From contig JACRPC010000012.1 of assembly GCA_016214125.1 (NCBI GenBank), forward strand, positions 1-64,000: 64,000 nt of DNA, written 5' to 3'. The stretch is from Rhodospirillales bacterium. Lineage in GTDB: Bacteria > Pseudomonadota > Alphaproteobacteria > Rhodospirillales > WMHbin7. Numbering within the stretch: position 1 is the stretch's first letter; every line of letters begins with the position of its first letter. The notes beneath the pieces were generated by a model. The model saw nothing but the letters and a program-made list of their open reading frames with translations. It was not told where the DNA came from and searched no databases. A program made the translations under genes and the position numbers. Below are positions 45,322 to 57,521 of the stretch, piece after piece.

Positions 45322-46218
45322 TCAGGCCAGGGCGACGGCGCCCTTGGTGGTGCGCTTGACCTGATACATGGCGGCGTCGGCGGCCTTCATCAGCGCCTCC
45401 AGACTGGCGCCATGGGCGGGATAAAGGGCGACGCCGACGCTGGCGCCGATGGTCGCCAGACCTTCGGGCATGTCGAAGGGAAGGCCCGCCCGCTCGACGA
45501 TCCGCTTGGCGATGGTCAGCGCCAAATCGGGGGTAAGCTTTTCCGCCAGCACCAGGAATTCGTCGCCGCCGATACGGGCCACGGTGTCCGATTCCCGGAT
45601 GCAGCCCAGAATCCGCCGCCCCATTTCCTGCAGCACCCGATCCCCGGCCTCATGGCCCTGGCCGTCATTGACGTTCTTGAAGCCGTCGAGGTCGATGAAG
45701 AACAGGCCGAATTGGGTGTGGTCGCGCTTGGCCCGCGCCAGGGCGTCGGCGAACAGGTCCTTGAGCAGCCGCAAGGTGGGCAGGCCGGTGAGCGCGTCGT
45801 GATTGGCGAGCTTGCGGATTTCCTCTTCCGCCTCCTTGAGGGCGGTGATGTCGACGAAGGCGAACAGCAGCAACTCCTCGCCCTCGATCGGAATGTCGGC
45901 CATCGAGGCCAGGCCCCAGACGATCCGTCCGTCGGGCCGGCGCAGGCGCAGCTCGAAATTGCGCACCGATCCTTCCTCGACGAATTTGAGCAACAGGCGC
46001 TCGCGGTCCGACAGATCGACGAACAGATCGCGCCAGGAATTGCCCAGGACTCCGGCGCCCTCGAAACCGAGCACGTCGTTGAAGAAGCGGTTGGTGAACA
46101 GCACGCTGCCGTCTTGGACGCGCACCAACAAGATGCCGGCCGGCACGGTGTCGTTGAAGGCGCGCAGGCGTTCGTCGCCCAGGATCAGCCGTTCAAAGGA
46201 CATGCTGTCGATCGTCAT
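45322..46218 (-). CDS. PAS-GGDEF diguanylate cyclase
   Basis: A 298-residue soluble protein. A PAS domain (residues 20 to 130, with DGSVLFTNRFFNDVLGF) precedes a GGDEF domain with IGGDEFLVL and an RESD inhibition site five residues before. Predicted to make cyclic-di-GMP upon signal sensing by PAS. The start is ATG 46218; ATG 46203 is an alternative. Confidence 0.9.
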   Translation of the reverse strand: MTIDSMSFERLILGDERLRAFNDTVPAGILLVRVQDGSVLFTNRFFNDVLGFEGAGVLGNSWRDLFVDLSDRERLLLKFVEEGSVRNFELRLRRPDGRIVWGLASMADIPIEGEELLLFAFVDITALKEAEEEIRKLANHDALTGLPTLRLLKDLFADALARAKRDHTQFGLFFIDLDGFKNVNDGQGHEAGDRVLQEMGRRILGCIRESDTVARIGGDEFLVLAEKLTPDLALTIAKRIVERAGLPFDMPEGLATIGASVGVALYPAHGASLEALMKAADAAMYQVKRTTKGAVALA

Positions 46219-48247: not shown

Positions 48248-48322
48248 CGTCCCTCCGGTCGAAATCCCGCGTTAATTTAAGCACGAATGACTGGGCGGGG
48301 AAACAAATTCGCGTTGCGCATC

Positions 48323-48394: not shown

Positions 48395-49939
48395 GTGACG
48401 GGTGGTATAAGAAAAATCGTTTCTTGGCAATATATTGCCACAATCCTTGGGGTCTTGGTCCTGGGAATGGGCGAAGTCTTGGCTTCTCCTCAGTCCGACG
48501 CCGCCATCCTTGCCGGCATCGCCAAGGCCGAGAAGCAGGATTACGCCGGCGCGCTCAAAGATTTCCAAGCCGCCCAGGCCGCCGACCCTGTCGATGGCCG
48601 CGCCGTCTTCTATCAGGGCTATGCGCTGAGCCGTTTGGGCAAGCTCCCCGAGGCGCTGAAGGCCTTCGAGGATTTCCGCGCCCGACGCATGACGCACCGC
48701 GAACTCGATTTCGAGGAAGGCTGGGCGTTGCTGCTCGCCGGCCGCCCCGGTCCGGCGAGCGAGCGGCTGGCGCGCTACGAACGCGCCAATCCCGCCAAGG
48801 CGCGGGCCAGCGAAATGTTGGGCCGCGCCTATCTGGCCGAAGGGCGCCTTGACGAAGCCGAGGCCGCGTTCAAGCGGGCGATGGCCGGCGATCCCGGCCT
48901 GGTGCCGGCGTCTCTCTATTCCCTGTCCCAATTGGAAAGCCGGCGCGGCAACGCCCGTCAGGCCCAATATTACGCCGACCGGCTGTTGCGCGATCACCCC
49001 GAGGCGCCGGCCGCCAAATTGCTGCGCGCCGCCCAGGCGGCAGCGCGGCCGGACGCGGCCGACAAGGCCTGGTCGGCCTATGGGGCGGCGGCGCTGGGCT
49101 TTAGCGACAACGCCTACGGCTTCAGCGACGATGTCGCCCGTCCCACCGACATCAAGCACATCGAATCCTTCTTCACTCAGGTCGATGTCGGCGGCGAGTA
49201 CCGTTTTGCCCCCACGGCAATCGATCATTTCGCCATCGGCTTCGGCGTCACCTACGCCGAGTATTTCGACATCGGGGCGCTCGACTTCCTCAACAACAGC
49301 GTTTATGGCCGCTATCAGCGCCGCCTCAATCCCTGGCTGGGCGCCACCTTGCAGTTGGGCGGCACCTACGCCCTGGTCGATGGCGAGCGCTTACGCAGCG
49401 GATTCACCGTCCAGCCGACGCTCACCATCCGGCCGATCGAGGGGCTGGGCGTCGACGTCTATTACGAATACGGGCTCTACGATTATCGCGGCCCCAGCCA
49501 GAACCCGCGCGATCTCGACCGCGACGCCGACCATCACACCACCGGGGCGCGCGCCAGTCTGGCGGTGGCGCCACTCAACACCACCTTCCATCTCGGCGCC
49601 GCCGGTCTCTATAATGATTCCGAAGGCACCGACTTCCGCTATCGGGCGGCCGAGATCATGGCCGGGGCCACGGTCAAGCTGCCCTGGCGCGTCGAGGCCG
49701 ATCTGCAGGCCAAATACGGCTGGTACGATTACTGGAAACCCAACAGCCTGACCGCGCCCACCGCCTACGAGAACAAGCGCTTCGACGACGTGGCGCAGTT
49801 CAAGGTCGGGCTTTCCCGGCCGATCTACGGCCCGGCCAGCGGCTTCGTCCAGTATCTCTACACCGATTCCGATTCCAACCTGCCGGTCTTCCGCTACACC
49901 CAGCACGACGCCCGGATGGGCGTCCTGGCCCGGTTCTAG
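48395..49939 (+). CDS. TPR-domain outer-membrane beta-barrel protein
   Basis: 514 residues from the GTG at 48395. Residues 1 to 31 are a signal peptide ending MGEVLAS. Residues 32 to about 225 are TPR-like helices (KDFQAAQAADPVDGRAVFYQGYALS; RLDEAEAAFKRAMAGDPG). From about 235 to the end is a beta-barrel: alternating strands with aromatic girdles such as GVDVYYEYGLYDY, ending in VLARF with the terminal Phe needed by BamA. The build resembles Slam (type XI secretion) proteins and polysaccharide exporters such as PgaA. It is followed after 2 bases by the first of four secreted-protein genes, so export of those proteins is the favoured idea. The assignment is inference. Confidence 0.7.
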   Translation: MTGGIRKIVSWQYIATILGVLVLGMGEVLASPQSDAAILAGIAKAEKQDYAGALKDFQAAQAADPVDGRAVFYQGYALSRLGKLPEALKAFEDFRARRMTHRELDFEEGWALLLAGRPGPASERLARYERANPAKARASEMLGRAYLAEGRLDEAEAAFKRAMAGDPGLVPASLYSLSQLESRRGNARQAQYYADRLLRDHPEAPAAKLLRAAQAAARPDAADKAWSAYGAAALGFSDNAYGFSDDVARPTDIKHIESFFTQVDVGGEYRFAPTAIDHFAIGFGVTYAEYFDIGALDFLNNSVYGRYQRRLNPWLGATLQLGGTYALVDGERLRSGFTVQPTLTIRPIEGLGVDVYYEYGLYDYRGPSQNPRDLDRDADHHTTGARASLAVAPLNTTFHLGAAGLYNDSEGTDFRYRAAEIMAGATVKLPWRVEADLQAKYGWYDYWKPNSLTAPTAYENKRFDDVAQFKVGLSRPIYGPASGFVQYLYTDSDSNLPVFRYTQHDARMGVLARF

Positions 49940-49941
49940 CC

Positions 49942-50442
49942 ATGCGCCCGGCCCCGCTCCTTCGCGCCGGTGCCCTGGCCAGCCTGGCCGCCCTCGCCCT
50001 GGGGTCGGCAAGCCCAGCCCAGGCCTGCAGCGGCGCGGCCACCGATCCCATCCGCTGCATCAACGGCAACCAGAAGATTCTCGGTTTCGGCACCTTCTTC
50101 CGCGACAATCTGATGCCGTTCCCGATCATCATCCTGCCGCCCGATCTTCTTTGGGGCAGCGCTCGCGCGCCCGAGCCGGAACCGCCGGTTTCCATGCAGG
50201 AGCTTCTGAACAACGCCGAACTCGGGTCCAACGATCCCACGACCTTCAAGGTCGGGCTTGCCAAATGGGCCGAGGCGTCGTCCCGCCTGGACCCCGAGCA
50301 CAAGGACACCTATCAGAGCATGGTGAAAACGGCCGACGATCTGATGAAGGCCGGCGCCACGCCCGAACAGATTCGCGAAGGCCTAGCCAGCCCCGGCGGG
50401 CCGCCGACGCCGCCGCCCCAGAACAATGATTTTGGCCGCTGA
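49942..50442 (+). CDS. Secreted protein A with C-terminal NNDFG motif
   Basis: 166 residues. The signal peptide ends SPAQA, so the mature protein would begin CSGAATDPIRC, giving two cysteines ten residues apart. INGNQK and FFRDNLMP follow. A helical module runs from about residue 85 to 150 (LGSNDPTTFKVGL...MKAGATPEQIREGL). The end is PPTPPPQNNDFGR. The lipobox is not standard, so type I processing is more likely than lipidation. Family unknown. The start is two bases after the barrel gene stop, suggesting coupled expression. Confidence 0.65.
   Translation: MRPAPLLRAGALASLAALALGSASPAQACSGAATDPIRCINGNQKILGFGTFFRDNLMPFPIIILPPDLLWGSARAPEPEPPVSMQELLNNAELGSNDPTTFKVGLAKWAEASSRLDPEHKDTYQSMVKTADDLMKAGATPEQIREGLASPGGPPTPPPQNNDFGR
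50017..50118 (+). repeat. Duplicated cassette encoding CSGAA-DPIRC (copy in gene A)
   Basis: 102 bases matching 50549-50650 at a constant offset of 532 without gaps and with few substitutions. The block encodes the signal-peptidase site, the two cysteines and the FFRDNLMP segment. Confidence 0.8.
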
Positions 50443-50488
50443 TCGAGCGCCGCCCGGGCGTCGCTCTTTGTTTCAAGGTTGGCCCGTG

Positions 50489-51034
50489 ATGCGCAAAGAG
50501 ATCGCCGTCTTGTTGGCCTTGGCCGGTTGGCTCGGTTTCGCCGGGCCGGCCCAGGCTTGCAGCGGCGCCGCCTCCGATCCCATCCGCTGCATCAACGGCA
50601 ATCAGAAGATCAACGGCTTCGGCGCCTTCTTCCGCGACAATCTGATGCCGCTGCCCGCCCCCGAATCGCCGGTGAAGACGGTCCGGCTCGACGATCCCAC
50701 GTCCAGGCCCGCTTTGCCCACCGATCTGGCCGCCGAACTGGCGCGCAGCCTGATCAGCGATCTCGTCAAGAAGGGCAAGCGGGCGCCTTCGTCCGATCGC
50801 GAATCCTTCGAGCAGGCGATCGCCCAACTGGCGCGGGCGCTCGAGGCCTATATGGCCGATCCCAGTTCGGAAAACTGGAAGGCCGTCGAACAGGCTTTGG
50901 GGGTGAGCGGTCCGGATGTGCCGGACGACTTGAAACCGCTGCGGCCGCAGGAGTTCGTCAGCCATGGGGCGCCGGCGACCTCCCCGCCGCAGAACAACGA
51001 TTTCGGCGTGCCGGCGGAGGGAAGCGGGCGTTAG
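50489..51034 (+). CDS. Secreted protein B with NNDFG motif
   Basis: 181 residues. Signal peptide EIAVLLALAGWLGFAGPAQA, then CSGAASDPIRCINGNQK, nearly the same as protein A. A helical middle (LARSLISDLVKKG...LARALEAYMADPSSENW) has only faint likeness to the module of A, C and D. The C-terminal part is SPPQNNDFGVPAEGSGR. The DNA for the first cassette matches that of gene A over 102 bp with few changes. ATG at 50489; the frame open from 50426 is not needed. Confidence 0.65.
   Translation: MRKEIAVLLALAGWLGFAGPAQACSGAASDPIRCINGNQKINGFGAFFRDNLMPLPAPESPVKTVRLDDPTSRPALPTDLAAELARSLISDLVKKGKRAPSSDRESFEQAIAQLARALEAYMADPSSENWKAVEQALGVSGPDVPDDLKPLRPQEFVSHGAPATSPPQNNDFGVPAEGSGR
50549..50650 (+). repeat. 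Duplicated cassette encoding CSGAA-DPIRC (copy in gene B)
   Basis: Partner of 50017-50118. The rest of genes A and B has diverged much further, so this block is either under strong selection or kept alike by gene conversion. Confidence 0.8.
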
Positions 51035-51067
51035 CGCGGCTCCGCCCGCAGATCGAGGAGGCCCAGA

Positions 51068-52324
51068 ATGACACGCATGCGCGTTGGGACTCTGATCGGA
51101 ATCAGCCTGGTCCCCTTGCTGGGGGCCCCGCACCCCGCCTTGTCCTGTCCCTGGGATCAGCCCAACTGCCTGGCCGGCAAACCGCCGCCGCCCGGCGTTC
51201 CCTCGGGCGCCGGCCCCTCGCCCACCAACATCCCTGGCAGCCAGCCCAATCTGCGCGACACGATGATCGTGCCCAAGGTGGTGGCACCGCCCACGGTCGA
51301 CGCGGCGCCGACGCCGCTGATCGACATCAAGGCCGCCAATATTCTGGAGCACATCTCGCCCGACGATTGGGAGGCGATGGGACAGGACCCCGAGGCGGGC
51401 CGCGCCTATCTGGCTGGCCGAGGAGTTCCCGCCGACGATATCGAGCCCATCCGTCTGGCCTTGGTCCGCCTGCTCAAGGAGATCGAGGCCGACGAGAGCA
51501 GCGCCGCGGACTTCCTCAAGGGCGAACCACGCCATGGCGCGCCACCCACCCCACCACCGAAAAACAACGATTTTGCGGATGACGATGCGTCGGTGCCGGT
51601 CAAGGGGGTTTCCACCTCGGGACTGGCCTCGCCACCGGCAAACTATTATGCGCCGCCGCCGCCTGATCGAGGACCGGTTACGTCGTGGCCGCAGACCCGC
51701 CCGCCGGCGACAACAAGAGCGGTGCCGGTCCGCAAGCCGGAGGCAAATTCAGAGCCGCCGGTCATCGTTAAGGCTCCTCCCACACCCGCACCTGGGGCAA
51801 AGACCGACAACGCGGCAGCAGCCGGTGACTCGTCGCCCCGCACCGAACCCGCGCCGACAACCTCGGACCGCGATCACACAAGCCGACCTCAACGTCCCAA
51901 CGAGGCGATCGAGCAACAAATAGACGCGTTGCGGGCCGAACTCGATTCCAAGGGCTACAATTCCAACGATCCGGAACGATTCTTGGTGGGCTTCAACGCT
52001 CTGATCGGTCGCGTGATGATGGGCGAGACCAACTCGGAACGACAGCACGTCGACATCGACATCATGCGCCGGGTCAATCAAATGCTGCGCGACGGCGCCA
52101 CGCCAGCCGAGATTCGAGAGGATTGGGGCGAGGTGATGATCGCGCGCGTTTGGCTTCAAATAGATGCTAAGGAAACTGCGGAGCGCCAACGTCGGCGGCG
52201 CGAAGCCGCCGAGCGCGAAGAATCGGAACGCCACGCGGCCTCGGAAGAGAAAAAACGCCAATGGGAGGCTGATCGCGCAAAGCGAACCGTCATCACCGGA
52301 CCACGAGGCGGCAGTGACTATTGA
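51068..52324 (+). CDS. Secreted proline-rich protein C
   Basis: 418 residues. The signal peptide ends HPALS, then CPWDQPNCLAGKPPPPGVP, so two cysteines seven apart near the mature start. NLRDTMIVPKVVAPP follows. The motif PPPKNNDFA lies near residue 165. After a Pro/Thr-rich linker, residues 278 to 360 carry the helical module (KGYNSNDPERFLVGFNALIGR...LRDGATPAEIRED), and the end is a charged Arg/Glu helix. GAGGAGG precedes the ATG. It overlaps gene D by 11 bases. Function unknown. Confidence 0.65.
   Translation: MTRMRVGTLIGISLVPLLGAPHPALSCPWDQPNCLAGKPPPPGVPSGAGPSPTNIPGSQPNLRDTMIVPKVVAPPTVDAAPTPLIDIKAANILEHISPDDWEAMGQDPEAGRAYLAGRGVPADDIEPIRLALVRLLKEIEADESSAADFLKGEPRHGAPPTPPPKNNDFADDDASVPVKGVSTSGLASPPANYYAPPPPDRGPVTSWPQTRPPATTRAVPVRKPEANSEPPVIVKAPPTPAPGAKTDNAAAAGDSSPRTEPAPTTSDRDHTSRPQRPNEAIEQQIDALRAELDSKGYNSNDPERFLVGFNALIGRVMMGETNSERQHVDIDIMRRVNQMLRDGATPAEIREDWGEVMIARVWLQIDAKETAERQRRRREAAEREESERHAASEEKKRQWEADRAKRTVITGPRGGSDY
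51137..51291 (+). repeat. Duplicated cassette encoding CPWDQPNC (copy in gene C)
   Basis: 155 bases aligning to 52383-52537 at a constant offset of 1246 with 16 differences by my count, about 90% identity, several of them silent. It encodes the mature N-terminus up to VPKVVAPP. Confidence 0.85.
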
Positions 52325-54395
52325 CCGGCTTCGCATCGGACTGGCGATCGGCGCCGCGGCGCTGCTTGCATCTTCGGGCCCGGCCTTGTCTTGCCCGTGG
52401 GATCAACCCAACTGCCTGGCCGGCAAGCCGCCGCCGCCCGGCGTTCCCTCGGGCGCCGGCCCTTCCCCCTCCGTTTTGCCCGGCAGCCAGCCCAATCTGC
52501 GCGACACGATGATCATGCCCAAGGTGGTGGCGCCGCCGGCGCCAGGCCCCGGCGCGCCGTCCTTGGGCGCGGTGGGCGCCTTGCCGGGCGTCGATTCGCC
52601 GCCGCCGGCCGGACCGACACCCGGCCTGGCCGAGTTCGGCGACGCCGCCACGAACAAACCCACCGACCGGGCCTATTTCGAGTTGCTGAAGACGCTCGAC
52701 GCCAAGGGCTATTTCTCCGACGACCCGGAAAAGTTCCGCGCCGGCTTTGCCGCCCTGATCGGCCTTCTCATGGATACCGATTACGCCTGGCAGACCAAGG
52801 TCGACTACTTCCACTATCTGCAATTGGCCGACGCCGAATTGAAGGCGGGCGTTTCGCCCTCGGCCATTCGTGAAAAGATGAATCACCTTCTCGACCTGCT
52901 TGGCCGCGATCAAGAGGAACGCGAAGCCAAGGACAAGGAAAAGCAGGCCAAGGAACCGCCGACGGAGAAGCCGTCCGACCGGGTCGCGGCCGTCCCCGCC
53001 GCTGGCGATCGGCTTGCGCCCACCTATTTCGACCTTTTGGTCCAGCTCGACGCCAGAGGCTATTTTTCCGACGACCCGGAAAAATTCCGCGCCGGCTTCG
53101 CCGCCCTGATCGGACGTCTCCTGGCAACCGATTACGGTTTGCAGACCAAGATCGACTATGGTCACTATTTCAACTTCGTCGATGCCGAGCTGAAGGCGGG
53201 GCGTTCGCCCTCGGCGATCCGGGAAAAGCTCAACCATCTGCTCGACCAGCTTGGCCGCGATATCGAGGAACGCGAGGCCAAGGACAAGGAGAAAGAAAAG
53301 GCGAAGGCGAAGGTGAAGGAAAAAGGCGGGGCCGCCGCGGGTCGCCGGGCCGACGTCCAGGGCAAGCGCCGCCTACCGCCCGGCGTCACCCCGGAACTCG
53401 TCGCCCGGTTCATCGTCGCCTTCATGGAATGGCAGGCCGACAAGCAGGCGCGAACACCCCGTCGCAGTGCCTCGCATCCGGCCCCGTCGGCGCCGCCGCC
53501 CGGCGCGAACGAATTCGGCGGCGATGTCGCCCGCCCGCCGCCGCCGGCGCCCCGCAACCAGTTCGCCCCGGGTAAAGTCCCGGCGGCGGCCGTCAAGCAG
53601 AAGGTGGTCGGCGGCGCCCCCGGCCTCAACCAACCCGAACAGCCGACGGTCATCGATTTCCCCAATCTGGTGATGGTGATCTATCCCGGAAGGAGCGACG
53701 AAGGCACGCCACCCCCCCCGCCCCCAGTGCCACCGGGCGCCGTTCCGGTGACGATCGAGCAGGTGCGTGCCGTCGCCAACGCCTTTTTCACCCCAGGCGG
53801 CGCGGGCGCTCCGCCCGAGGGCCAGACCAAAGATCGTCCGCCACCGACGCCGCCGGGCGGCAATTCGCCCAGCGCCATCCTCAGCACCGCCGAATGGATC
53901 AATGTCATCCGGGTTGCGGTCACCGCCTATGTCTATTTTGCCGAAAAGACCGTTGGCGTTTCAAGGGGCGCGCCGTCAACGCCGCCGCCGCAGAACGAGG
54001 ATTTCGGTGCGCCGCCGCCACCACCACCGCCGCCGCCTGCGCCGCAGAACGACAATTCCGGAGCGCCGCCCGAGGGTGAGCCCACCAAGGCCGAAATCGA
54101 GCAGGCGCTGAAGGAAGCCCTTGAGGCATTCGTCGGTTTCGTGGACATCCTGGATGGCCGTCCCCCGGCGCCAGACCGGCCTCCCGGCAACGATTTCGAG
54201 GCGCCACCGGCACCCACGCCGCCGCCGCCGCCGCAGACCAACGATTTCGAGGCGCCGCCGGCGCGCGAGCCCACCAAGGCCGAAATCGAGCAGGCGCTGA
54301 CGGACGTCGCCGAGGAAATGATCGAGCTCTCTAACCCCCGCGACCCGCCACCGCCGCCGCCCGAGCGCCCCGCCAACAACGAATTCGGCAATTAA
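52314..54395 (+). CDS. Secreted proline-rich repeat protein D
   Basis: 693 residues from the GTG at 52314. The signal peptide ends GPALS, and the mature start CPWDQPNCLAGKPPPPGVP equals that of C. Two tandem helical modules (about 116-205 and 233-320; each has GYFSDDPEKFRAGFAALIG and a segment SPSAIREK). A Lys/Glu coil follows, then a long Pro-rich half with at least seven variants of the N-x-D/E-F motif (GANEFGG, QNEDFGA, GNDFEA, QTNDFEA) and two repeats PTKAEIEQAL. It ends PANNEFGN. A longer frame from 52164 would lie inside gene C and hide the signal peptide. Confidence 0.65.
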   Translation: MTIDRLRIGLAIGAAALLASSGPALSCPWDQPNCLAGKPPPPGVPSGAGPSPSVLPGSQPNLRDTMIMPKVVAPPAPGPGAPSLGAVGALPGVDSPPPAGPTPGLAEFGDAATNKPTDRAYFELLKTLDAKGYFSDDPEKFRAGFAALIGLLMDTDYAWQTKVDYFHYLQLADAELKAGVSPSAIREKMNHLLDLLGRDQEEREAKDKEKQAKEPPTEKPSDRVAAVPAAGDRLAPTYFDLLVQLDARGYFSDDPEKFRAGFAALIGRLLATDYGLQTKIDYGHYFNFVDAELKAGRSPSAIREKLNHLLDQLGRDIEEREAKDKEKEKAKAKVKEKGGAAAGRRADVQGKRRLPPGVTPELVARFIVAFMEWQADKQARTPRRSASHPAPSAPPPGANEFGGDVARPPPPAPRNQFAPGKVPAAAVKQKVVGGAPGLNQPEQPTVIDFPNLVMVIYPGRSDEGTPPPPPPVPPGAVPVTIEQVRAVANAFFTPGGAGAPPEGQTKDRPPPTPPGGNSPSAILSTAEWINVIRVAVTAYVYFAEKTVGVSRGAPSTPPPQNEDFGAPPPPPPPPPAPQNDNSGAPPEGEPTKAEIEQALKEALEAFVGFVDILDGRPPAPDRPPGNDFEAPPAPTPPPPPQTNDFEAPPAREPTKAEIEQALTDVAEEMIELSNPRDPPPPPPERPANNEFGN
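52383..52537 (+). repeat. Duplicated cassette encoding CPWDQPNC (copy in gene D)
   Basis: Partner of 51137-51291. Similarity falls away sharply after the VAPP codons, which marks the edge of the cassette. Confidence 0.85.
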
Positions 54396-56004: not shown

Positions 56005-56186
56005 AGCCAGGGTATCCCTGTATTGTGGCGGCGTCCCTGGTGGCGCGGTCGAAAAGCACGGCGCCGCATCGGCCGCAAAGAGCCGTATATTTCTCTGATC
56101 AACCTGCAATTACGGGACTTGCCTTCCCTCCTCGCTGGTTATGTGGTAGAAAACCACAAAATAATTGTGCTTCGCGGGAGGGGGGT

Positions 56187-57521
56187 ATGGAACAGGCAAC
56201 CCAAGCCGCCTACAGCGTGTTGACGCAGGCCGAGGGGCCGGTCGAGCGAAAATTCGCGGCCCGGGAAAACCCTTCACGATTGCTTGGCCTGTTCGCCATC
56301 TTGTCGGTCTTGTCGGTGGCGATGATTCTCGCCTTGTCGGGAATCGGCTTTCACCGCGTCATCCAGAACGAGATGATGACGGTGGCCGAGGAAAAGGCCC
56401 ATCAGTTCGCCAACGCCATCTTCGCCCAGGAACGCGCCACCTTGTTGCATCACGACAAGGGCCGCCCGGTGATCGCGGTCGCCGAGGCCGATTTCGCCGC
56501 GCTCGACAAGCGGATGAAACAGACCCTGATCAATTTCGACATGTACAAGATCAAGGCTTTTTCCGCCGACCGAACCATCGTCTATTCGACCGACCACAAG
56601 ATCATCGGCAAGGTCGAGGACTTGAACGACAAGCTGGCCGAGGTCATCGTCCGCGACACGGTGGTGTCGGTGCTCGAACACAAGGAATCGGTGCGCGATC
56701 TGGCGGGCGAGGAACGCTTCAACATCGACGTCGTCGAATGCTACATCCCGATCAAGGTGGGTCCGTCGGTCGTCGGCGCCTTCGAGGTTTACGTCGAGGT
56801 GACCTCGACCCACGCCCGCATCGAGCGGGCGCTGAAGGGATCGCTGGCCATCCTGGCCGGGGTCTTGGTGGTGGTCTTTGCCCTTTTGTTCCTGCCGCTG
56901 CGCCGAGGCATGATCGGGCTCAAGAGCGCCCAGGACTATCTGCGCGAACTGGCCTCGATCGACACCCTCACCGGCGTCTTCAACCGCCGCCACCTGCTCA
57001 ATCGGGTGCAGGAGGAGCAGGCGCGCCTGCGCCGCACCGCCGGCAAGGCGGTGGCGCCGGTCGTTTCCTTCCTCATGATCGACATCGACCATTTCAAGAA
57101 GATCAACGACACCTACGGCCATTTGGGCGGCGATCAGGTGCTGCGCCAAGTCACCCACCGGCTGAAGAAATGCCTGCGCCAGTACGATGTGCTCGGCCGT
57201 TATGGCGGCGAGGAATTCCTGGTGATGCTGCCCAACACCCGTCTCGACCAGGCTCTGGTGGTGGCTGAGCGCATGCGCCACGCGGTGTGCGGCACGCCCA
57301 CGCCGCTCGAGGACGGCCAGGGCGCAACGGTGAGCGTCAGCATCGGGGTTTCCACCGTCACCGATCACGGCCAGGATATCGCCGCCGCCATTGCCCGCGC
57401 CGATGACGGCCTTTATCGGGCCAAGAACAACGGCCGCAATCAGGTGTGTGCGCTCGACGACACGGCGCGGCTTGACGCCCAGGCCGCGCCGATCGCCGGC
57501 GCCTTGCCCCAAATCTCATAA
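56187..57521 (+). CDS. Membrane-bound diguanylate cyclase
   Basis: 444 residues. Two membrane segments (about 32-55 and 213-236) bracket a periplasmic sensor of about 155 residues that looks like a single Cache/four-strand type fold (YSTDHKIIGKVEDLNDKL). The GGDEF domain has RYGGEEFLVM and an RQYD inhibition site five residues before. Predicted to make cyclic-di-GMP. The ATG at 56187 has a strong GGGAGGGG. Confidence 0.9.
   Translation: MEQATQAAYSVLTQAEGPVERKFAARENPSRLLGLFAILSVLSVAMILALSGIGFHRVIQNEMMTVAEEKAHQFANAIFAQERATLLHHDKGRPVIAVAEADFAALDKRMKQTLINFDMYKIKAFSADRTIVYSTDHKIIGKVEDLNDKLAEVIVRDTVVSVLEHKESVRDLAGEERFNIDVVECYIPIKVGPSVVGAFEVYVEVTSTHARIERALKGSLAILAGVLVVVFALLFLPLRRGMIGLKSAQDYLRELASIDTLTGVFNRRHLLNRVQEEQARLRRTAGKAVAPVVSFLMIDIDHFKKINDTYGHLGGDQVLRQVTHRLKKCLRQYDVLGRYGGEEFLVMLPNTRLDQALVVAERMRHAVCGTPTPLEDGQGATVSVSIGVSTVTDHGQDIAAAIARADDGLYRAKNNGRNQVCALDDTARLDAQAAPIAGALPQIS

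Follow-up and report, generated by a model that had tools for sequence, protein, structure and literature searches.

We analyzed a 64,000-nucleotide stretch of DNA from a Rhodospirillales bacterium (assembly GCA_016214125.1, contig JACRPC010000012.1, positions 1 to 64,000 of the forward strand; hereafter the window), focusing on five consecutive genes that encode a TPR and beta-barrel outer-membrane protein followed by four secreted proteins, A to D. Judged from its sequence, the barrel protein is best read as a type XI secretion system (T11SS)-like exporter with a new class of cargo, in which an N-terminal cassette is a candidate recognition tag. In known type XI systems, a single outer-membrane protein combines a TPR domain in the periplasm with a barrel and exports unfolded cargo. 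The genes and the two domains of the barrel protein are as follows.

48395..49939, + strand: barrel gene, TPR and beta-barrel outer-membrane protein, candidate exporter with a signal peptide; 514 residues from the GTG at 48395
48488..49043, + strand: periplasmic TPR domain; 11 predicted helices, AlphaFold2 pLDDT mostly 81-95 (model residues 28-212)
49064..49936, + strand: C-terminal beta-barrel domain of about 290 residues, a remote SlipAM/DUF560 relative by family profile comparison
49942..50442, + strand: putative cargo A; 166 residues, 2-base gap after the barrel gene, signal peptide ending in SPAQA
50489..51034, + strand: putative cargo B; 181 residues, 46-base gap after A, signal peptide ending in GPAQA
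51068..52324, + strand: putative cargo C; 418 residues, 33-base gap after B, signal peptide ending in HPALS
52314..54395, + strand: putative cargo D; 693 residues from the GTG at 52314, 11-base overlap with C, signal peptide ending in GPALS

The sequence and the open reading frame calls confirmed all five genes at these positions, and the spacing given in the initial annotation (gaps of 2, 46 and 33 bases, then an 11-base overlap) was exact. An alternative in-frame ATG for the barrel gene lies at 48287. Pfam and NCBIfam scans of A to D returned no significant domain.

Pairing of the barrel gene with secreted-protein genes

The family comprises ten loci in eight genomes, with three barrels in the window's own genome (G000) and one in each of seven others; loci fetched for comparison carry L-numbers. 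Over their full length, the two own-genome paralogues are 41% (G000:C36) and 29% (G000:C44) identical to the window protein. A metagenome-assembled genome of the same order (G015, JAOUPW010000001.1) carries one homologue, which was the only match in the barrel search of genome contigs; cargo B had no relative in such a search. Barrel-only profiles added strong members in G066, G611, G625, G714, G698 and G701. No further strong whole-barrel locus was found among 317 genomes of the same order, 385 of the class, 24 of the G611 order and 398 of the phylum. In this sample, the barrel family is sparse and confined to one class.

At each of the ten loci, the barrel gene is directly followed, on its own strand, by a gene for a secreted protein (signal peptides were assigned by inspection). 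The barrel stop and the cargo start are 2 to 30 bases apart, with a slight overlap in L094. Several secreted proteins stand beside one barrel in the window, in G015 and probably in G066, and a single one at the remaining loci. Because two paralogues from the same genome and seven orthologues each precede a secreted-protein gene, chance pairing is excluded. The flanks vary between groups: major facilitator, GGDEF and DUF748 genes surround the window locus (Pfam scan), while the other loci are accompanied by genes for a molybdopterin oxidoreductase, uracil-DNA glycosylase, histidine kinase, asparaginase, BatA-type protein, glutamine amidotransferase, glycosyltransferase-41 (GT41; protein O-GlcNAc-transferase type) or HTTM protein. 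By analogy with Slam, the initial annotation had read the locus as that of an exporter and its cargo. The invariable pairing, together with the remote SlipAM/DUF560 kinship of the barrel described below, strengthens that proposal; transport, its direction and the role of the tag are inferred.

Conservation of the N-terminal cassette and its coupling to the barrel

A and B carry, immediately after the signal peptide, a cassette of about 33 residues in which some ten residues separate two cysteines.

50026..50124, + strand: N-terminal cassette of A, CSGAATDPIRCINGNQKILGFGTFFRDNLMPFP
50558..50656, + strand: N-terminal cassette of B, CSGAASDPIRCINGNQKINGFGAFFRDNLMPLP

The cassette occurs in six of the ten loci and in two orders, namely in A, B, the G000:C36 cargo and the cargo of G611, G714, G698 and G701. 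Its alignment contains ten invariant positions (A, C, G, D, P, C, G, F, L, P). The cassette starts with a cysteine (+1) straight after an AxA-type cleavage site. In a pattern search, neither PS51257 nor a strict lipobox pattern matched any of the 14 cargo proteins; lipidation of the cargo is not indicated by these patterns, the +1 cysteine being noted.

A profile of the three own-genome cassettes was used in a six-frame search of the 24 genomes of the G611 order. Its matches fell in exactly the four that bear a barrel, with E from 3e-17 to 4e-7, and every one lay in the gene next after the barrel; the next best match had an E of 0.34. Exact agreement of four among 24 would arise by random placement once in 10,626, position aside, with the qualification that the four genomes are related. 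Among the 317 genomes of the window's order, a seven-sequence profile gave strong matches in the window's own genome only (A, B and the C36 cargo). Widespread homologues of A to D without a barrel had been named at the outset as evidence that would count against an exporter; no cassette homologue without a barrel was found in the 317 + 24 genomes. Separately, a weak match in G178 (E 0.0014) lay inside an open reading frame that reads as a molybdenum-cofactor nucleotidyltransferase, with no upstream signal peptide, and was taken as chance.

With the cassette removed, BLAST found the bodies of different groups dissimilar; with the cassette kept, loci of different orders matched at E of about 1e-10. 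Since the pairing of barrel and cassette is kept while the bodies are dissimilar, what is conserved is the barrel together with the N-terminal cassette, the remainder of the cargo having been exchanged. The barrel tree agreed with this division: the six cassette-associated barrels formed a clade of their own (94/95), as did the two that accompany G015/G066-type cargo (100/100). The G015 and G066 cargo (L033 and L050) matched the cassette profile marginally, 2-3 of 300 shuffles being equally good. Cargo proteins without the cassette also open with a signal peptide and two early cysteines, and a common origin of these segments with the cassette is a candidate only.

Besides the cassette, the initial annotation had listed a helical module and a short motif as shared within A to D. 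All of these elements were seen; as defining elements of the cargo the module and the motif did not hold up, given that only the A/B cassette recurs outside the locus. Their positions, together with a second type of N-terminal segment, are listed here.

51146..51280, + strand: second-type N-terminal segment of C (CPWDQPNC...NLRDTMIVPKV), 93% identical to the D segment over 45 residues
52392..52526, + strand: second-type N-terminal segment of D, from the comparison with C
50182..50400, + strand: helical module of A
50705..50938, + strand: weak helical-module copy in B, 28% identical to the D copy, no BLAST match
51896..52180, + strand: helical module of C
52659..52931, + strand: helical module copy 1 of D, AlphaFold2 pLDDT 90, pTM 0.81
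53013..53282, + strand: helical module copy 2 of D, sharing 78% identity with copy 1
50422..50436, + strand: NNDFG motif at the C-terminus of A

An alignment of the module copies gave a confident AlphaFold2 helix bundle with the scores listed for copy 1. Foldseek found no PDB match better than E 1, and a second structural comparison gave a best Z of 6.7, which may reflect just a common helix-bundle arrangement. The PPxNNDFG-type motif stands at the C-terminus of A, near that of B, internally in C and repeatedly in D, which is rich in proline and has seven NNDFG-like motifs. The motif was absent from related cargo outside the window locus (by pattern for L031-L050, by reading for the rest). C and D are tied to A and B through the helical module and the motif only, the cassette not being common to them. 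Another motif, RD[NT][LMF]..P, occurs in A to D and in the cargo of L032, with a shuffle rate of about 0.001-0.007 for each protein; it was a post hoc pick, absent elsewhere, and was not used. Promoter and terminator scans of the locus gave nothing decisive.

Several features of the other cargo proteins and their surroundings were recorded. The cargo of the second own-genome locus (L031:7827-9098) contains a barrel-like stretch of the TonB-dependent receptor type (PF25183, E 3e-4, below cut-off). The cargo bodies at L074:6851-8473 and L092:4500-6428 pass the Porin_4 cut-off (35-36 bits versus 27), and the L092 cargo contains an internally duplicated unit of about 60 residues. In G066, a secreted-protein gene homologous to L033:5686-6498 lies at L050:8101-8963 (- strand) and is apparently frameshifted. 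An HTTM/vitamin-K-dependent gamma-carboxylase-like gene (PF05090, PF22777) stands beside the barrel and cargo genes of G701 (L094:2977-4335), and a similar sequence, partly out of frame, occupies the same place in G698 (L093:5288-6493); modification of the cargo by such an enzyme is possible. G698 also carries a TPR and glycosyltransferase-41 (O-GlcNAc-transferase type) gene at L093:64-1995, convergent with the cargo gene.

Kinship of the barrel and comparison with known systems

The window barrel protein matched TPR_16 at 1e-12 and had a weak general barrel match in Pfam. Its final residue is Phe, and alignments with orthologues span its full length. The T11SS-like build, an N-terminal TPR domain and a C-terminal membrane barrel in one protein, is present, the barrel part being deduced from sequence. 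Individual barrels were scored against SlipAM (PF04575; DUF560, Slam; curated cut-off 22 bits) and BBP2_2 (PF10082; cut-off 23.7). The barrels of L032 (22.3 bits) and L093 (26.4 bits) exceeded the SlipAM cut-off, although L032 fell just short of it in the six-frame search (20.8). Those of L092 (18.9 bits), L075 (15.9 bits) and L031 (15.0 bits) scored below it, and no SlipAM score is listed for the L074, L050, L034 and L094 barrels. In profile-profile comparison, seven family barrels matched four barrels above the SlipAM cut-off with 99.5% probability over 251 columns. The corresponding values were 84.9% over 161 columns for the family versus two strong BBP2_2 barrels, and 24% over 57 columns for SlipAM versus the same BBP2_2 pair. 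On these profiles, the barrel family is best placed on a remote branch of the DUF560 superfamily. A clear match to a porin or polysaccharide-exporter family had been anticipated as a possible objection; the window barrel gave no such match, including none to BBP2_2.

A barrel of 14 strands is a feature of T11SS/DUF560 proteins; in the window family, the count of amphipathic strands (18) was not clearly higher than in permuted columns (15 +/- 2). The barrel profile had no match among PDB sequences, and a true SlipAM protein retrieved only TPR and chance matches from the same source, with no Slam template found by sequence. Two further barrel types resemble the window family. A 699-residue protein of G121 (L056:4092-6191), which reads as a polysaccharide-export protein of the SLBB type, has a C-terminal barrel resembling the family's last strands. 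A barrel of about 346 residues without TPR (L051:5798-6835, L052:3786-4826) is weakly similar to the family and adjoins a FecR-like secreted protein whose long tail is rich in alanine.

The window locus resembles the T11SS cluster 1 systems (Slam1/Slam2, NilB and HrpB) in its TPR domain and C-terminal barrel, its adjoining secreted cargo genes and its remote barrel kinship. It differs from them in that the window copy does not reach the Pfam cut-off and has no match to TPR_Slam. The cargo also differs: as the initial annotation had observed, barrel handle domains are missing, with no Pfam match to TbpBBD or lipoprotein C, the C-terminal eight-stranded barrels of cluster 1 cargo, in any cargo protein, and no match to the lipobox that marks Slam cargo, which are surface lipoproteins. 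In known type XI cargo, the shared part and a proposed specificity motif are C-terminal and the N-terminus varies (PMC12282271, PMC9090332); here the N-terminus is conserved and the remainder variable, which is the reverse order. Slam1 moves cargo in proteoliposomes with the assistance of Skp (PMC9090332), and HrpB secretes soluble, unlipidated HrpC (PMC8406197).

In marine Rhodobacteraceae/Roseobacteraceae, T11SS cluster 3 combines a DUF560-type barrel with one to three paralogous DUF1194 secreted proteins (PMC12282271). The window family shares with this cluster the DUF560-type barrel and cargo without the cluster 1 C-terminal barrel (PMC12282271), whereas its cargo is not DUF1194 (no Pfam match) and bears the two-cysteine cassette. 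A similar build, with TPR and a distant SlipAM-like barrel beside a secreted protein, is found in many Pseudomonadota next to FecR-like proteins. There, unlike here, the neighbors read as FecR-domain proteins, often with a CHASE2-type gene, and no cassette was seen. By reading, such FecR-like loci are L077, L079, L083, L055, L058, L059, L085, L141, L142 and L143, several with a CHASE2-type gene. FecR is unmentioned in two type XI surveys (PMC8406197, PMC12282271), and the SlipAM-like barrel and FecR-like protein may be another unrecognized barrel-cargo pair. PgaA/BcsC and BBP2_2 barrels share the TPR and barrel build and a weak barrel similarity; in contrast to these systems, the window family has no polysaccharide genes among the neighbors scanned, and the BBP2_2 profile match is weaker than that to SlipAM. 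For the cargo class, we found no description in the literature searched; the initial annotation likewise knew of no described system with such cargo.

Proposed mechanism, rival explanations and meaning

On this evidence, the barrel protein is probably a T11SS-like outer-membrane protein exporter, and A to D its cargo. A to D would cross the inner membrane by Sec, as their signal peptides suggest. By homology to Slam and HrpB, the periplasmic TPR domain and the barrel would engage the unfolded cargo and thread it through the barrel, and the TPR domain or the barrel could recognize the N-terminal cassette or the unfolded chain near it. In A, B and five cargo proteins of sister loci, the cassette would be the likely recognition tag and the variable remainder the payload; the two cysteines could form a disulfide. 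C and D would probably be co-transported, having perhaps joined via duplication and module exchange within the locus. A surface or matrix role of the payload is a guess from its proline- and repeat-rich make-up. A stronger proposal is that the family is a new branch of type XI-like secretion, in which a portable two-cysteine cassette of about 33 residues selects the cargo and the payload is freely exchangeable; this we put forward tentatively, stopping somewhat short of calling it probable.

Several results weigh against an exporter with tagged cargo. The window barrel gave no SlipAM match at E up to 10, and TPR_Slam (PF24575) was unmatched in every family member (in several other DUF560-like proteins it was seen, below cut-off). 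The L074 barrel passed the BBP2_2 cut-off (29.6 versus 23.7), the sole member to do so. AlphaFold2 modelling from two sequences, the window protein and one relative, gave a confident TPR domain and an unusable barrel (barrel pLDDT 22-41). The C, D, L032 (G000:C44) and L075 (G625) cargo had no cassette-profile match above shuffles; the tag therefore cannot account for every barrel-cargo pair. The pieces of the L031 and L074/L092 cargo that resemble outer-membrane barrels indicate that some cargo could be membrane-embedded. Gene adjacency is also compatible with partners that are not transported.

The last point leads to the main rival, in which the secreted proteins stay with the barrel as fixed partners, serving as plug, periplasmic adaptor or surface subunit, and the cassette is a docking segment that keeps them bound to the barrel or its TPR domain, with no export. 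Each locus pairs one barrel tightly with one or few secreted proteins, the cassette type agrees with the barrel clade, a short cassette is equally plausible as a docking site, and the TonB-receptor-like piece of the L031 cargo would suit such a partner. However, cargo bodies of different groups are unrelated once the cassette is set aside, and cargo lengths of 166 to 693 residues with four proteins per barrel in the window look more like interchangeable cargo. We consider fixed partners unlikely.

A less likely alternative, already raised in the initial annotation, is a polysaccharide porin of the PgaA/BcsC or BBP2 type, with A to D serving the same polymer as accessory or matrix proteins. PgaA and BcsC also combine TPR with a barrel, PgaA homologues fall inside DUF560 cluster 5 (PMC8406197), and one orthologue, the L074 barrel, lies above the BBP2_2 cut-off. 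GGDEF-domain genes flank the window locus on both sides at about 2 kb (45322-46218, - strand; 56025-57521, + strand). Gene content gave this alternative no support: no polysaccharide synthase, deacetylase or polysaccharide export gene was present among the neighbors scanned at the window and eight other loci (some neighbors were unscanned). Moreover, the PgaA and BcsC barrel families were unmatched, the barrel profile is nearer SlipAM than BBP2_2, and a polysaccharide pore leaves the coupling of cassette and barrel unexplained. Such a pore is quite improbable.

Least credible is an unrelated porin whose pairing with the secreted proteins is an inherited gene cluster without functional link. 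The strong members all belong to one class, and adjacency could be inherited; yet one genome carries three paralogous pairs at three sites, the flanking genes vary from group to group, and the cassette tracks the barrel in all 24 genomes while the bodies are replaced. Two-partner secretion was rejected, with no POTRA or TPS-domain match in the Pfam scans.

For the exporter with tagged cargo, the transport principle would be a known one and the barrel is distantly related to known exporters; the system would therefore be a variant of a known secretion type with a new cargo class. According to the 2025 survey of type XI systems, cargo is neither known nor predicted for most such outer-membrane proteins, and a C-terminal barrel unifies the cargo of the cluster that has been studied (PMC12282271). 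The window locus and its nine sisters supply matched barrel-cargo pairs, most of them with a conserved N-terminal cassette and interchangeable bodies. If the proposed reading is true, a compact secretion tag would be served by a single outer-membrane protein, and the search for cargo across the whole large family would change.

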